DNA from: Croceibacterium segetis
Lineage (GTDB): Bacteria > Pseudomonadota > Alphaproteobacteria > Sphingomonadales > Sphingomonadaceae
Length of the DNA stretch: 64,000 nucleotides
Assembly: GCF_011320115.1 (NCBI RefSeq)
Contig: NZ_JAANOZ010000002.1
Location: 1 to 64,000, forward strand
Reading direction: 5' to 3'
Shown: in pieces, positions 38,877 through 45,960 of the stretch
Layout: the number at the start of each line of letters is the position of its first letter
Numbering within the stretch: position 1 is the first letter of the stretch
Position numbers and translations under genes: made by a program
The notes under the pieces: generated by a model
Told to the model about the DNA's origin: nothing
The model's input: only the letters and a program-made list of their open reading frames with translations
Databases searched by the model: none

Positions 38877-40676
38877 TCAGCGCACGGCCAGCGCCGGCTC
38901 CCCGCCGAGCGCGCGGGCCTTGGCGAGCAGGACATCGGCCCCGCTCGTCTCCGTGCCGTTTGCCTCCAGCGCCGCCGCCAGCACGCTCGTCGCGCGGGGG
39001 CTCGCCCGCTCGAGCGCATAGGCGCGGCGTGCGTTGGCCAGTGCCCGCCGGCGGTCGCCGAGGTGGAGCTGCGCGTCCGCCAGGTCGGCGATCAGTCGCG
39101 GGTCGCCCGCCCCGCCGGGCAGCCGGGCGGCATGGCCGAGCAGCATGGCGGCGCGCCGCCAGTCACCGTCCCGAGCCGCCGCCCGTCCGACAAGCGCAGC
39201 CATTGCGCGGTCCTGTGGATGCTGGGCCAGGTACCCGGCGAGCTCGGCCTCGGCGAGGCCGTCTTGCCCGAGCGCCCTCTCGGCCGCGGCGATGCGCTGC
39301 GCGAGCGAAGCAGTCCAGCGCACCCGCTTGGCCGAGCGATAAAGCGCCAACGCGCCCGCAAAGTCGCCGCCGAGCAACGCCGCGTCGCCCGTGAGAACCT
39401 CGATGTCCGACGAGTTCGGATAACGCTGGCGCAGTTTGAGGCTGTACTCCGCCGCCTCCACCGTGCGCCCTTGCGAAAGCAGCTTGCGCAGCGTCGGCAC
39501 GGCGACATCGGCGGCGGTCGGGTCGGCGCCCCAGCGATAGATCGCCAGGTCGCCCGCCTCGGACGGAGCCAGCGGGCCGACCTGCGCGTCCGGAGCGCGG
39601 GCGGCACGGTCGAGAAAGGGCGCGGCGAGATCGCGCCGGTCGATCTGCTCGTAAGCCCGTCCGACCAGCGTCAGCAGGTACGGCGAGGCATCGGACCTCG
39701 CAGCGCGCCCGGCAAAGCGGGCGATGACCTCGCTCGCATCGCCATCGGCCAGCAACGCGCTGGCGAGCAGTCGCGCGGCCGTCTCATTGTCGGGCTGCAA
39801 GTCCGCCAGCTTGTCGAACCGCTCGACCGCCAGCTCGGTGCTCCCCGCACGGTATTCGAGCAGGCCGGCAACCACCATTCCAGCGGGGCTTTCGTCGTAA
39901 GCCCCCTTTGCGCTCCACAGCAGCCTTCGGGCAAGCTCGTCCTGCCCGGCCCGCGCCGCCAGCACCGCCTGGAGGAAGTAGGCGCGCGGATCGGTGCGGT
40001 CGATCTTGACCATGGTCCGGGCGACGGCGAGCATCTCGCGGTAGCGTCCGAGGTCGCCGAGCGTCGCGGCGTACTCGCCGAGCACTTCGAGGTCCTTCGG
40101 CGCCCGCTGCGCCGCGCGCTCGAACCACGGCTGCGCCGCGGCGAGGCCTTGCGCGTCGCGCACCAGCTCGGCCTGGAACTTGAGCGCCCGCGGCTCGCCG
40201 GGATCGATCGCCAGCGCGCGGTTGACGGCGTCGGCGGCGAGATGCTGCTCACCCGCCTGATAGCGCAACCGGCCGATATCGACCCACAGCCGCGCGTCCG
40301 GCTTGCCGGCCTGCAGCGCGCGGTCGAAAGCCACCGCCGCCGGCGCGAAATGCCCCGCCGCCAGCTCGAGCTTGCCGAGCGCATGGTAGCCGCGCTGCGC
40401 GCTCGCCGGGTCGAACCCGCCGGCCGCGAGCCGCTTCCGCGCCTCGTCGAAGTCCCCCCGCAACAGTGCCGCTTCGCCGAGGTAGGCATCGACCGCCGCA
40501 TGGGGTTCGCCAGCGTCGAGCGCGCGGCGCGCCGCGACTTCGGCGGCTACCCCGTCTCCCCGGTCGATGGCCGTCGCCGCATCGGCCAGCGGATCGTCGC
40601 GCCCGCCGGCCAGCGCGGGGAGCGCCAGCAGGACAAGCAGGACCGCCAGGAAGGCCTTGTCAGGCCTGCAAGTCAT
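38877..40676 (-). CDS. exported TPR-repeat protein of the PrsK/PrsR cluster
   Basis: A 599-aa protein with an N-terminal signal ([25 protein letters not shown]) followed by many tetratricopeptide repeats, for example AYLGEAALLRGDFDEARKRL, ALGKLELAAGHFAPAAVAFD and LWVDIGRLRYQAGEQHLAAD. Its start overlaps prsR by 17 bp, so it belongs to that operon. In XrtA/PEP-CTERM gene sets a TPR protein called PrsT accompanies prsK and prsR; this one is shorter than the roughly 900-aa PrsT as I remember it, so I withhold the symbol. A role as periplasmic scaffold for exopolysaccharide or protein sorting is likely but inferred. Confidence 0.82.
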   Translation of the reverse strand: MTCRPDKAFLAVLLVLLALPALAGGRDDPLADAATAIDRGDGVAAEVAARRALDAGEPHAAVDAYLGEAALLRGDFDEARKRLAAGGFDPASAQRGYHALGKLELAAGHFAPAAVAFDRALQAGKPDARLWVDIGRLRYQAGEQHLAADAVNRALAIDPGEPRALKFQAELVRDAQGLAAAQPWFERAAQRAPKDLEVLGEYAATLGDLGRYREMLAVARTMVKIDRTDPRAYFLQAVLAARAGQDELARRLLWSAKGAYDESPAGMVVAGLLEYRAGSTELAVERFDKLADLQPDNETAARLLASALLADGDASEVIARFAGRAARSDASPYLLTLVGRAYEQIDRRDLAAPFLDRAARAPDAQVGPLAPSEAGDLAIYRWGADPTAADVAVPTLRKLLSQGRTVEAAEYSLKLRQRYPNSSDIEVLTGDAALLGGDFAGALALYRSAKRVRWTASLAQRIAAAERALGQDGLAEAELAGYLAQHPQDRAMAALVGRAAARDGDWRRAAMLLGHAARLPGGAGDPRLIADLADAQLHLGDRRRALANARRAYALERASPRATSVLAAALEANGTETSGADVLLAKARALGGEPALAVR

Positions 40677-42024
40677 ATTGCTTGAGCAGGTCGTACAGCG
40701 TCGGCCGGCTGATCCCGAGCAACTTGGCGGTGTTCGAGATGTTCCCCTCGCTGCGCGCCAGCGCGTGGCGGATCATCTTGCGGTCGGCCTGCTCGCGCGC
40801 GCTCTTGAGGTTGAGCGCCTCGGCCTCGCTGCCTTCGGCATCGTCGAGATCGAGATCCTCGGCGCCGACCATCTTGCCGTCTGCCATGATTACCGCGCGC
40901 TTCACCCGGTTCTCCAGCTCGCGCACGTTGCCCGGCCACGGCCAGCCGTCGATCGCCGCCAGCGCGTCGGGCGCGAAGCCCTTGACCTGCGGGTTCATCT
41001 CGGCGGCAAAGCGGTTGAGAAAGGCCTTGGCCAGCAGCGTCGCGTCGCCGGGCCGTTCGGCCAGGCTGGGAATCTTCACGACTATCTCGGCGAGGCGGTA
41101 GAACAGGTCCTCGCGGAAACTTCCCTGGGCGATCATCGCCTCGAGGTCCTGGTGCGTCGCGCAGACGATCCGCGTATCGACCGCGATGTGCTGGCGCCCG
41201 CCGATCCGCTCGATCGTCCGCTCCTGCAGGAAGCGCAGCAGCTTGACCTGCAGCGGCAGTGGAATGTCGCCGACTTCGTCGAGGAACAGCGTGCCGCCGT
41301 CGGCCAGCTCGATCTTGCCTTCGGTGGTCTTGACCGCGCCGGTGAAGGCACCCTTCTCGTGCCCGAACAGCTCGCTCTCGAGCAGGTTCTCGGGGATCGC
41401 CGCGCAGTTGATGGCCACGAAGTTGCCGCCCCGTCGGCCGCTCGCCTCGTGCAACCCACGCGCCAGCAGTTCCTTGCCGGTGCCGCTCGCGCCGAGGAGC
41501 ATCACCGAGACGTTGGTGTTGGCGACGCGCTCGATCGTGCGGGCGACGCGGATCATTTCGGGAGCCGCGGTGATCAGGGAGCCGAGCACCCGGTTGCCCT
41601 CGCCCGCCTTGCTGGCGAGCTGCCGGTTCTCGGCTTCGATCCGGTGGAGGTTGAACGCGCGGCGGACGATCAGGCCGAGCTGCTCGATGTCGACCGGCTT
41701 CTGATAGAAGTCGTAGGCACCGCGCTCGATGGCGGTCAGTGCGCTCTCGCGCGCGCCATGGCCGCTGGCGACGATGACCTTGGTGTCGGGTTTCAGCCGC
41801 ATGATCTCGTCAAGCACGGCGAACCCTTCGCTGGTCCCGTCGGGATCGGGCGGCAGGCCGAGGTCGAGCGTCACCACCGGCGGTTCTTCCGCCCGCAGCG
41901 CGGCGATCGCACTCGCCCGGTCGCCGACGATGACCACGTCAAAATCGTCATAGGCCCATTTGAGCTGCGCCTGCAGGCCTTCGTCGTCCTCGACGATGAG
42001 CAGCTTGGGTTTCATCTCGGCCAT
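40660..42024 (-). CDS. prsR: PEP-CTERM-box response regulator PrsR (sigma-54 activator)
   Basis: A 454-aa NtrC-type regulator. The receiver domain has the phospho-acceptor D54 ([10 protein letters not shown]) and the K of YDFYQKPVD. The AAA+ domain has Walker A GASGTGKE, the sigma-54-contacting loop GAFTGA and Walker [15 protein letters not shown]. The C-terminal Fis-type helix-turn-helix is [22 protein letters not shown]. This plan, with prsK directly upstream and the TIGR03013-like transferase beyond, matches the PEP-CTERM-box regulator family that acts with RpoN. ATG at 42024 overlaps the prsK stop in a TGATG; a GTG one codon earlier (42027) is possible. Confidence 0.92.
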
Positions 42025-44117
42025 CACGCCACCTTTTCCGTTGTTTTCTGCATCGTCCGAATCAACTCGGCCGCCTCGGCCAGCGGCAGGTGAATCGCGA
42101 AGCGGCTTCCCAGTCCTTCGTGACTCTCGACCTCGAGCCGGCCGCCCATCGCCCGGACGATCTCGCGCGCCTCGAATGCGCCAATGCCGAATCCGCCCAC
42201 CTTCGACGAATGAAACGGCTTGAAGAGCCGCGAGCGGACGAACTCGGGCGTCATGCCGGGTCCGGAATCGGTCACTCCGATCACGACCTCGTTTCCATCG
42301 CGGGTCGCCTGCAGCATGACCGGCTGGTTCTCGCCGCTCGCCTCGACCGCGTTTTGCACCAGGTGCACCAGCGCCTGCTCGAGCGCCTCCGGCTGGGCCT
42401 GCACCGAACAGTGAACCGCCTCGAGAACGGTCACCTCGTGCTGCGCCCGGTAGCGCTCGGCAATTCGGCGAAGCAGCGGCGCAATCTCGACGGGATGAAC
42501 CGGCTCGTGCCCTTGTGCCCCATATCGCCCAAGCCGGGTAAGAAGGGCGTTGAGCTTTTCGCTGCTGTTCTTCAGCGTGACCAGCATATCGGCGCGGAAC
42601 TCCGGGTTCTCGGCATGCTTCTCGGCGTTGCGAGCGAGCAGGGCGAGTTGGCTGGCAAGGTTCTTGATATCGTGCATCACAAAGGCGATGCGGCGATTGA
42701 ACTCATCGAACCTCTGCGCCTCGCCGAGTGCGTCCTGGCTCGCTTGCTCGGCCAGGTAGCTGGCAAGCTGCCGGCCGACCACGCGGAGCAGGTCGAAGTC
42801 CTCCCAGTCGAGCTTGCGCGCATGGGGCGGGCGCGCCAGCGCGACGACTCCGAGGAGTCGCTCGTAGTGCAGCAAGGGCACCATCGCCCATGCGTCCGGC
42901 TCATCCGCAATCCAGCCGGGGATCGCTCCTTCGGGCACGCCCTCCGCCTTCCCGGCGCGCCACTGGTCGAGGTCGAGAATGAATTCGGCCTCGGCAAAGA
43001 ACCGCGCCGCCGCCTCGCCAAGTGCTGGCGCCGGGACGTGCGGCGCTGGCCATTGCCAGCGTGCTTCGAGCGTCAGGCCGGCATCCTCCGCGGGCGTGAG
43101 CAGCAGGCCGCCCGGACTGTCCGTGATGTCGGCGACTGCCTGCACCACGCGTTCCGGCAGCGGCGAGGCGCCCGGTCCGGCGCGACCCATCGTACGGGTA
43201 AAGCGCAGCCATTCCTCGCGGTAATCGTAACGATGCTGGAACAGATGCTTGATCGTCGTTACGCGCAGCCACCTGCGCAGCCGGCGCGACGGCAAGACTA
43301 TCAGCGCGACCGCGCTGGCGGCCGCCACGAACGCGATCTGCACCAGCCGCACGAAGTCGCCGCCGATCGCCGCCAGTCCCTCGTACGCGACGACCATCAC
43401 CAGGAAGTAAGCGCCGATGAGCAGCAACGAGAACGACTGAAACGCGAACGAGCGCGATGGCCGGAACACCTGCTGCCCGTCTTTGGCCATGGCGCCCAGC
43501 ACGAGCAGGCCGAGCATCGCAAGTGGCACGAAGCCCCGCAATCCGTCGAGCGCCTCCGGGATTTCGCCACCGAGATAGGCCACTGTGTAGTAATTGAGAT
43601 CGTAGGCCCACAGAAGGGCGAGCGCAGCGGCCGGCCAGCGCATGCTCGTCCGGTTCGGCGAGGATGCGCCGACATAAAGATTGTGCACCAGGACGAGCGC
43701 CCCGGAGCAGAACAGCAGACGAAGTGCGTTGGCGACGTGCTGCAGCGGATCGGCCGCAGCCGCGTCGTTCAGGCCGGGCACGGCGAGCGCGACAGCGATC
43801 TGCAGCAACTCGACAAAGGCGAGCGCGGCGACCACCGGGCGGATCGGCGCGACGCTCGCATGACGGCCGTCCTGGACGAACAACCGGTAAAGCATCCACA
43901 GCCAGGCAAGACTGGCGAGGCTGTAAAGGAGTCGCCCGGTGACGGCGGAATCGCCGTACGCGATGACCGAGACCGACCACAGGGCAGTCAGCCCCAACGC
44001 CACCGCCGCGGTGCCGGAAGCCATGCCAAGCCGTGCCCGATGCGTCGCCAGCCAGCCGCCGAGCACAAGCGCTCCGATTGCCGACAGGAGGTAGCCCGAG
44101 AATGCCAAACCGCTCAT
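42024..44117 (-). CDS. prsK: PEP-CTERM system histidine kinase PrsK
   Basis: A 697-aa sensor kinase. The first 300 or so residues form about eight to ten membrane helices (starting MSGLAFSGYLLSAIGALVLGGW). A GAF-like cytoplasmic domain follows, then the H-box FVMHDIKNLASQLALLARNA with phospho-acceptor His482, and the HATPase with HLVQNAVEASGENQ, DSGPGMTPEFV and GGFGIGAFEAREIVRAMGG. The MHDIKN type of H-box and the membrane domain are those of the PrsK family. It would phosphorylate PrsR. Its ATG overlaps the sugar transferase stop by 4 bp (ATGA), which fixes the start. Confidence 0.92.
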   Translation of the reverse strand: MSGLAFSGYLLSAIGALVLGGWLATHRARLGMASGTAAVALGLTALWSVSVIAYGDSAVTGRLLYSLASLAWLWMLYRLFVQDGRHASVAPIRPVVAALAFVELLQIAVALAVPGLNDAAAADPLQHVANALRLLFCSGALVLVHNLYVGASSPNRTSMRWPAAALALLWAYDLNYYTVAYLGGEIPEALDGLRGFVPLAMLGLLVLGAMAKDGQQVFRPSRSFAFQSFSLLLIGAYFLVMVVAYEGLAAIGGDFVRLVQIAFVAAASAVALIVLPSRRLRRWLRVTTIKHLFQHRYDYREEWLRFTRTMGRAGPGASPLPERVVQAVADITDSPGGLLLTPAEDAGLTLEARWQWPAPHVPAPALGEAAARFFAEAEFILDLDQWRAGKAEGVPEGAIPGWIADEPDAWAMVPLLHYERLLGVVALARPPHARKLDWEDFDLLRVVGRQLASYLAEQASQDALGEAQRFDEFNRRIAFVMHDIKNLASQLALLARNAEKHAENPEFRADMLVTLKNSSEKLNALLTRLGRYGAQGHEPVHPVEIAPLLRRIAERYRAQHEVTVLEAVHCSVQAQPEALEQALVHLVQNAVEASGENQPVMLQATRDGNEVVIGVTDSGPGMTPEFVRSRLFKPFHSSKVGGFGIGAFEAREIVRAMGGRLEVESHEGLGSRFAIHLPLAEAAELIRTMQKTTEKVA

Positions 44118-45499
44118 CGCGCGCCCTCCGGCCAGAGGATCACCCGCAAGGTCTGCAGCATGATCAGCAAGTCGAGGAAGGGCGTGTAGTTCTTGGCGTA
44201 GTAGAGATCGTATTCGAGCTTGGCCCGCGCGTCCTCGATCGAGGCACCATAGGGATAGTTGATCTGCGCCCAGCCGGTGATCCCCGGTTTGACCATGTGC
44301 CGCTCGGCATAGAACGGCAGCTTGTCCTCGAGGTCCTCGACGAACGTGGGCACTTCGGGGCGCGGGCCGACAAAGCTCATCCGCCCGGTGAGCACACTCC
44401 ATGTCTGCGGCAATTCGTCGATGCGCAGCTTGCGGATCAGCCTGCCGAGCCGCGTCACGCGCGGATCGTCCTTCTGCGCCCACTTTGCCCCGTCCTTTTC
44501 GGCGTCGGTGCGCATCGAGCGTAGCTTGATGAGCTCGAACGGCTCGCCGTAGAGGCCGACGCGGCGCTGGCGGAAGAAGGCCGGGCCCCGGCTGTCGAGC
44601 TTCACCAGCACCGCGAAAAGCGCGATTACCGGAAAGGTGAACAGCAGCAATGCCGAGCTCGCTGCGATGTCGAAAGCGCGCTTGGCGAGGCTCGAGAGCA
44701 TCCTTCCCGAGGAGAATCCGTCCGAGAATATCAGCCAGCTGGGATTGAGCGTGTCGAGGTCCACGCACCCGGTCTCGCGCTCCATGAAGCTCGAGAAATC
44801 GTTGACGTAGACGCCGGCGGTCTTGACCCGCAGCAAGTCCTTCAGAGGCAGCGAATTGCGCCGTTCTTCGAGCGCCAGCACCACTTCGCTGGCGCCGAGG
44901 TTCTGCACGTGCCGCGACAAGTCGGCGATTGCCTCGCGCGGCACGGCCTCCGCGATCACTTGCTGACCGGGATTCATCGCGACGTAACCGGCGATGACGA
45001 AGCCGCTTGCCGGCCGTTCGGCGAGGCGACCGATCCGTCGGGCGCGGCTTCCGGCACCAAGCACCAGCACCCGCCGGCGGAACGCCGCGGCGCCGAGGAC
45101 CCCGCCAACCACCAGCCGGTTGGCCATCAGCAACGCGATCGCCAACACCATCGCGTAGAGCAGCGTCGAGCGCCAGAACGTGTGTCCCTGCAGAACGAAG
45201 GCGATGAAAGCGAACAGGAGCACCGCAAGGCTGACGCCGACGAGCAGCCGGGCGCCTGCAAAGCGCATCGAGCGCAGGGCGTCGGCCCCGAACACGCCGA
45301 CGGCGATCATCGCGCTATGGGTAACGACCGCAAACGCCAGCAATATCGGCAACCGCGCCGCCAGCGATCCGGATGCCATGCCGATCTGGTCCGCGCGCAG
45401 TACCCACGCAAGATCGCCTGCCACCAGTAGCAGCGTGAAATCGAACAGCCCGAGCAGCAGCACCGCATGCGGGACGTAGTGCTTGAACAGTCGGATCAT
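44114..45499 (-). CDS. exosortase/PEP-CTERM-associated polyprenyl sugar-phosphate transferase
   Basis: A 461-aa initiating glycosyltransferase (polyisoprenylphosphate hexose-1-phosphate transferase type) that would load the first sugar of an exopolysaccharide repeat onto undecaprenyl phosphate. Four N-terminal membrane helices precede a nucleotide-binding-like region (VLVLGAGSRARRIG), a further hydrophobic segment, and the catalytic bacterial_transf domain: AKRAFDIAASSALLL, KLRSMRTDAEKDGA, LRIDELPQTWSVLTG, MSFVGPRPEVP and KPGITGWAQINYPYG. The start MIRLFKHYVPHA and layout match the TIGR03013 group that travels with XrtA loci. ATG 45499 follows GGTGGGAGCG; a GTG at 45508 is the alternative. 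Confidence 0.92.
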   Translation of the reverse strand: MIRLFKHYVPHAVLLLGLFDFTLLLVAGDLAWVLRADQIGMASGSLAARLPILLAFAVVTHSAMIAVGVFGADALRSMRFAGARLLVGVSLAVLLFAFIAFVLQGHTFWRSTLLYAMVLAIALLMANRLVVGGVLGAAAFRRRVLVLGAGSRARRIGRLAERPASGFVIAGYVAMNPGQQVIAEAVPREAIADLSRHVQNLGASEVVLALEERRNSLPLKDLLRVKTAGVYVNDFSSFMERETGCVDLDTLNPSWLIFSDGFSSGRMLSSLAKRAFDIAASSALLLFTFPVIALFAVLVKLDSRGPAFFRQRRVGLYGEPFELIKLRSMRTDAEKDGAKWAQKDDPRVTRLGRLIRKLRIDELPQTWSVLTGRMSFVGPRPEVPTFVEDLEDKLPFYAERHMVKPGITGWAQINYPYGASIEDARAKLEYDLYYAKNYTPFLDLLIMLQTLRVILWPEGAR

Positions 45500-45563
45500 C
45501 GCTCCCACCGGCGGCGTCCGCTCCCCTTTGCGGACGCGCCCGGATTAGGCGGGATAGATGAAA

Positions 45564-45580
45564 TGTCGGTAAATTTTACA
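45564..45580 (-). promoter_or_regulatory. palindromic AT-rich site upstream of the sugar transferase/prsK/prsR operon
   Basis: TGTCGGTAAATTTTACA (plus strand, 45564-45580) contains the palindrome GTAAATTTTAC (45569-45579, one central base) and outer TGT/ACA. It lies 65 bp before the sugar transferase ATG. A repressor or activator site is plausible, and a PrsR-bound PEP-CTERM box is one idea. I cannot verify the match to that consensus and found no clear sigma-54 -24/-12 element. Confidence 0.4.
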
Positions 45581-45619: not shown

Positions 45620-45901
45620 TTAGTGAGTGGTGTTGTTCGCCGCGTCCTTGGCCGCGTCGCCGACATTCTGCGCGGCATCGCCCACCTGGTTGGCGGCGTT
45701 GGCGATCGCGTTGTCCTTGTTCGCCTCGGCCCCTCCCCACTTGTTGAAGGCCCAGACGCCGATGACCAGCGCGACGATGATCAGCAGTGCGATAAGGAAT
45801 AGCCCGCCGCCACCCGAACGTCCGCCGTCGGAAATCACGGTTGTGTGGGTATGGGTATCGCCGTCCGGCGACTGGACTTCGGTGACGCGTTCTTCGACCA
45901 T
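45620..45901 (-). CDS. 93-aa membrane protein with LEA-like repeats, candidate general-stress protein
   Basis: The polar, Thr/His-rich N-terminus (DTHTHTTVISDGG) leads to one membrane helix (LFLIALLIIVALVIGVWAF, about 34-52) and a polar tail with the repeated pattern NQVGDAAQNVGDAAKDAANN. The repeats resemble the amphipathic 11-mer-like units of LEA and CsbD-type stress proteins. The ATG at 45901 follows AAGGGGAATGGAACA. An exact EcfG-type promoter lies 34 bp upstream, which supports both the start and a stress role. It lies upstream of the sugar transferase on the same strand with a 120-bp gap. No named family recognised. Confidence 0.78.
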   Translation of the reverse strand: MVEERVTEVQSPDGDTHTHTTVISDGGRSGGGGLFLIALLIIVALVIGVWAFNKWGGAEANKDNAIANAANQVGDAAQNVGDAAKDAANNTTH

Positions 45902-45934
45902 TGTTCCATTCCCCTTGGTTGAGGTTGGCGGCGA

Positions 45935-45960
45935 AACGCCCCACGCGCCCGGCGAGTTCC
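45935..45960 (-). promoter_or_regulatory. exact EcfG-type general-stress promoter
   Basis: On the minus strand GGAAC (45960-45956) is followed after 17 bp by CGTT (45938-45935). Both elements and the spacing match the alphaproteobacterial general stress sigma factor consensus GGAAC-N16/17-CGTT with no mismatch. It is 34 bp upstream of the 93-aa protein ATG, a normal leader length. Confidence 0.65.

Follow-up and report, generated by a model that had tools for sequence, protein, structure and literature searches.

The promoters recognised by the general stress sigma factor EcfG have been described in two sphingomonads. Those measured in Sphingopyxis granuli TFA have the form GGAAC-N16-CGTT with a variable -10 box (PMC7083833), and those of Sphingomonas melonis Fr1 follow the pattern GGAAC-N17-20-GTT and mostly lie less than 100 nt from the coding sequence (PMC6599016). 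Many of the sphingomonad EcfG targets are small or envelope-related proteins whose function is not known, and roughly half of the targets as a whole have no known function (PMC7083833, PMC6599016).

Here we describe a small gene of Croceibacterium segetis, located within a window of 64,000 nt, that would constitute a widely conserved and uncharacterised member of the EcfG regulon. The gene resembles the direct EcfG targets of S. granuli TFA and S. melonis Fr1 in promoter sequence, in spacing and in the distance to the start codon. Its family is not named among the EcfG targets in the available portions of the two reports (PMC7083833, PMC6599016), and its dependence on EcfG is here read from the sequence. 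The features of the locus are collected in Table 1.

Table 1. Features of the small gene, the adjoining exopolysaccharide (EPS) operon and the general stress locus of the same genome; positions refer to the window unless protein residues or another locus are named
Feature	Position	Strand	Remarks
General stress locus	L161 2624-6276 (G000:C42)		in order: phyR, CHASE-HWE histidine kinase (opposite strand), nepR-ecfG
-35 element GGAAC	45956..45960	minus	EcfG-type promoter
-10 element CGTT	45935..45938	minus	17 nt from -35; NGTT conserved in homologues
Small gene, 93-aa ORF	45620..45901, stop included	minus	single-pass membrane protein
N-terminal segment	residues 1-32 of 93-aa protein		disordered, Thr-rich
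Transmembrane helix	residues about 33-52 of 93-aa protein
Ala/Gly-rich amphipathic tail helix	residues about 61-92 of 93-aa protein		7-residue repeat
Conserved 23-nt box TGTAAAATTTACCGACATTTCAT (= TGTAAARTTTACCGACATTTCAY)	45558..45580	minus	EPS operon element, not the small gene's
TAATCC, -10-like hexamer	45542..45547	minus	16 nt (fixed) from CCGACA of the box; putative EPS start region
epsB2, XrtA/PEP-CTERM polyprenyl glycosylphosphotransferase	44114..45499	minus	TIGR03013, NCBIfam 484 bits vs cut-off 393
prsK, XrtA/PEP-CTERM histidine kinase	42024..44117, start approximate	minus	TIGR02916, 500 bits vs cut-off 300
prsR, XrtA/PEP-CTERM response regulator	40660..42027	minus	TIGR02915, 678 bits vs cut-off 503
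prsT-like TPR protein	38877..40676	minus	TIGR02917, 125 bits, below cut-off 312

The 93-residue protein and its family

The reading frame of 93 codons that the earlier note had placed on the minus strand is present, and the conserved M-x-E-E-R with which its homologues begin supports its ATG. The architecture described in that note also stands: there is a single strongly hydrophobic segment, beginning at residue 33, and the repeated tail contains NQVGDAAQNVGDAAKDAAN at residues 71-89. All members of the family have the same layout, in which a Thr-rich N-terminal segment is followed by a single transmembrane helix and then by a tail rich in Ala and Gly, and the motifs EER-T and HTTVV are conserved in the N-terminal part. 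The AF2 model places helices at residues 31-56 and 61-92 with low confidence (mean pLDDT 65), and a Foldseek search of the PDB with this model gave no match. The tail has a period of seven residues, with an identity of 0.33 at lag 7 compared with 0.13 for shuffled sequence at the same lag and 0.185 at lag 11, and its helical moment is strong near 100 degrees. It is rich in Ala, Gly, Asn and Asp, with a GRAVY of -0.77, while the whole protein has a GRAVY of -0.05 and contains 12.9% glycine. Basic residues flanking the transmembrane helix amount to 2.06 on the N-terminal side versus 1.29 on the other, with an excess on the N-terminal side in 52 of 78 homologues, a bias that weakly favours a topology that keeps the N-terminus inside and exposes the tail on the outer side.

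A sample of 298 genomes of the order yielded homologues in 100 (profile of 37 members, E <= 1e-5), the nearest named ones belonging to Croceibacterium species (Sphingomonadales) with best-segment identities of up to 76%. For the profile used to scan contigs, the first 14 homologues proved too diverse and 8 closer ones were taken instead. In the genus labelled g113 (e.g. L112, L114, L118) a few profile matches span one internal stop codon; the stop probably marks the end of a shorter tail, beyond which the similarity is due to chance. Comparison of the protein with Pfam and NCBIfam gave matches below threshold only (Oleosin, Rv0361_Cterm, YtxH). When the profile was run against PDB sequences, ATP synthase subunit b emerged as a weak match (E 0.005), and it was rejected as a relative because the two share a composition of transmembrane helix plus Ala-rich helix that does not amount to homology.

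Two functional readings of this architecture compete with the one preferred below. In the first, the protein would be a small regulator or adaptor and not a bulk protectant, docking onto a larger membrane protein through its transmembrane helix and heptad tail. The small bitopic form and the regular seven-residue repeat would suit helix pairing, and the conserved N-terminal EER-T and HTTVV motifs are also consistent with such a role; however, no neighbour or partner of the small gene was found to be constant across clades, and the protein has no family assignment, so that we give this reading a substantial but minority chance. Somewhat less probable is that the protein is a membrane-anchored desiccation protectant of the LEA or hydrophilin type, with a tail helix that stabilises membranes. 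The earlier note had called the protein LEA-like, and this is justified as far as the Ala/Gly-rich amphipathic tail is concerned, but not by family membership, by the repeat length or by the membrane anchor. An EcfG-type promoter, a polar tail and the glycine content would all fit a protectant of this kind. Against it, the LEA family models of Pfam matched none of the 37 members, which also gave no other confident Pfam match; the repeat comprises seven rather than eleven residues; and the protein as a whole is not strongly hydrophilic. We therefore use the LEA label for a compositional likeness and not for membership, as no member matches a LEA model.

The adjoining exopolysaccharide operon

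The earlier note correctly placed the small gene next to an EPS operon: epsB2-prsK-prsR-prsT follows directly downstream on the same strand, the start of epsB2 being set by a conserved ATGATCCG. The gene order is not general. For the larger part of the Erythrobacter clade, the small gene is flanked by a gene for an XRE-type regulator on one side and by the EPS operon on the other, and in ten Sphingomonas-like loci (L170-L176, L180, L182, L183) it follows dnaX-ybaB and faces a convergent mtgA, these three genes having been named by reading the sequences. The EcfG motif is kept in the Sphingomonas-like loci despite the different neighbourhood, and several loci that have no adjoining EPS box (e.g. 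L013, L025, L044) still carry an exact motif. This persistence shows that the motif is inherited with the small gene and that adjacency to the EPS operon is confined to a single clade.

A conserved 23-nt box, present as one exact copy in the genome, precedes epsB2. Of the 30 loci examined that contain the box, 27 have it just ahead of an EPS glycosyltransferase gene; from box start to the beginning of the tblastn match the distance is 58-89 nt. A sample of 150 genomes of the family yielded the core of the box in 54, as a rule once per genome, and the box occurs in loci that lack the small gene as well. The -10-like hexamer downstream of it, TA(A)NC, is conserved at its first two positions in 26-27 of 27 loci and less so at the later ones. 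Given this conserved box, and given that only 17 of the 30 box loci have the small gene upstream, the EPS operon has a promoter-like region of its own.

The nature of this element can be compared with the PrsR-controlled PEP-CTERM promoters and the 17-nt PrsR box described by Haft et al. in 2006 (PMC1569441). The EPS box is similar in that it holds, on the opposite strand, a motif of 17 nt that ends with TTTACA (TGTCGGTAAATTTTACA) and stands beside prsK-prsR. It differs from the PEP-CTERM promoters in that no sigma-54 -24/-12 element (TGGY-N8-YGC) was found downstream of the box in any of 27 loci, and in that the PEP-CTERM genes of the genome do not carry it: upstream of the eight such genes (L162-L169) neither the EPS box nor a clear -24/-12 promoter was found, so that these regions depart from the proteobacterial pattern of 2006 (Haft, PMC1569441). 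On these two grounds the box was rejected as a sigma-54/PrsR promoter.

It had been proposed that transcripts begun at the EcfG promoter run on into epsB2-prsK-prsR-prsT and so tie the stress response to exopolysaccharide synthesis. The geometry permits this, as the genes share a strand with only 120 nt between the stop of the small gene and the EPS ATG, no terminator between them was found in the window or in other Croceibacterium loci, and the small gene stands upstream of the EPS gene in somewhat more than half of the box loci. In S. melonis, EPS and glycosyltransferase genes also belong to the EcfG regulon (PMC6599016). Three observations nevertheless speak against the proposal. The box with its hexamer at fixed spacing stands before the EPS gene even where there is no small gene; 9 of 29 syntenic loci carry a strict intrinsic terminator after the small gene and ahead of the EPS box, a count that is a lower bound because the search for near-perfect stems misses bulged hairpins, and stable hairpins occur in more; and the EcfG promoter accompanies the small gene to other places, such as its position beside ybaB and mtgA. 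A stress-to-capsule link by read-through is thus not supported and we consider it improbable, while some leak-through may occur in Croceibacterium, as no terminator was seen there. Probably epsB2 forms a transcription unit separate from that of the small gene.

The EcfG-type promoter

The exact GGAAC-N17-CGTT reported in the earlier note was recovered upstream of the small gene, 33 nt from the ATG rather than the 34 nt given there. Bare counts of this pattern are of little use: dinucleotide shuffles of the window contain on average 2.26 matches to GGAAC-N15-19-CGTT, and the genome contains 38 sites of the form GGAAC-N16/17-CGTT versus 57 for a reversed control. Since there is no enrichment in either the window or the genome, such counts were not used as evidence.

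Position-specific conservation is a different matter. In 23 of 40 orthologous loci an exact GGAAC-N16/17-CGTT lies no more than 75 nt ahead of the start codon, and in 36 this stretch holds a match at 8 or more of the 9 bases. Mononucleotide shuffles of these stretches gave no exact match and a mean of 0.39 loci at >=8/9, and 5,700 other windows of 75 nt from the same 40 loci gave no exact match and 0.8% at >=8/9. Another 38 homologues were more distantly related, one Sphingomonas-like genus supplying half, and they include 19 with an exact motif and 37 at >=8/9. Pooling all 78 homologues gives 42 exact and 73 at >=8/9, leaving five with no good motif, and these figures become 34 and 62 of 67 when near-identical proteins are removed; close relatives among the motif-bearing loci are not independent of one another. 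The distance from motif to start codon ranges from 20 to 43 nt, and the conserved promoter motif spans dozens of species. Among non-redundant loci the -35 positions hold 1.7-2.0 bits of information and the -10 positions 0.9-1.9, with nearly all flanking positions below 0.5 and those around the -35 element below 0.4; as these loci had been selected for a match at >=8/9, the values are to be judged by how far they exceed those of the flanks. The spacer sequences differ between genera, which argues that the motif is a footprint and not simply a product of recent common ancestry. The unenriched bare pattern might suggest that the motif arose by chance in GC-rich DNA, but this conservation test already refutes such an origin: exact matches recur before the start codon and are absent from the control windows, and the probability of a chance match is close to nil. 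The earlier note had staked its promoter on conservation of the motif upstream of orthologues, and that conservation holds; taken together, the sequence evidence strongly supports an EcfG promoter at the small gene.

The circuit needed for its use is present. The genome carries nepR and ecfG as overlapping genes, with GGAAC-N16-CGTT ahead of nepR, and phyR and the gene for a CHASE/HWE histidine kinase lie close by. The marks of membership in an EcfG regulon are accordingly found together at the small gene: a promoter near the start, its conservation in homologues, and PhyR, NepR and EcfG in the genome. Searches of S. melonis-like genomes for a homologue returned marginal matches only and none that was clear, so the published S. 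melonis transcriptome cannot decide the matter. Fiebig et al. reportedly presented a study of the general stress response of Erythrobacter litoralis in 2019. In the portion of the literature examined, no published transcript data were found for the small gene or a homologue.

Proposed role and comparison with known systems

Taken as a whole, the explanation that we hold with high confidence is that EcfG directly controls the small gene, as a conserved target, that its product is a bitopic protein that probably protects the envelope, and that the EPS operon is a separate unit. Under stress, phosphorylation of PhyR would remove NepR from EcfG, and RNA polymerase carrying EcfG would initiate at GGAAC-N17-CGTT to give a short mRNA for the 93-aa bitopic inner-membrane protein, which is very probably made under these circumstances. 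The N-terminus would be cytoplasmic, and the amphipathic Ala/Gly-rich helix with its seven-residue repeat would project outside, where it would most likely form oligomers or align with the membrane or with a partner. In this way the protein may help the envelope to withstand osmotic or desiccation stress. An envelope role is probable, and we infer it from the combination of stress control, membrane anchoring and an amphipathic tail. The adjoining EPS operon would be a transcription unit apart, with its own promoter-like element.

The EcfG promoter outlasts the gene neighbourhood, and this recommends the small protein as a candidate core effector of the general stress response and as an easy target for knockout. 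Setting the EPS operon apart from the small gene also means that its own conserved box poses a distinct regulatory question. A more far-reaching interpretation, which we offer as speculation, is that an unnamed family found throughout the sphingomonads, and controlled by EcfG in nearly all of its members, builds a layer or oligomer of heptad helices on the outer side of the inner membrane, by which the envelope is kept intact through drying or osmotic shock.

Among described proteins, YtxH, the DUF883 proteins (ElaB/YqjD) and other small stress-induced membrane proteins resemble the small protein in size and in the possession of one transmembrane helix and an Ala-rich helical part. The transmembrane helix of DUF883 proteins is C-terminal, unlike that of the small protein, and the YtxH model is touched by only one of the 37 family members (E 0.006). 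Group 3 LEA proteins (LEA_4) and hydrophilins offer the other comparison. The small protein is like them in its Ala/Gly-rich, polar amphipathic helix and its stress-type promoter, and differs from group 3 LEA proteins in having a repeat of 7 and not 11 residues, a transmembrane anchor and no match in Pfam. If the heptad helices do form a layer outside the membrane, the family would represent an anchored analogue of the LEA proteins built on a different repeat.
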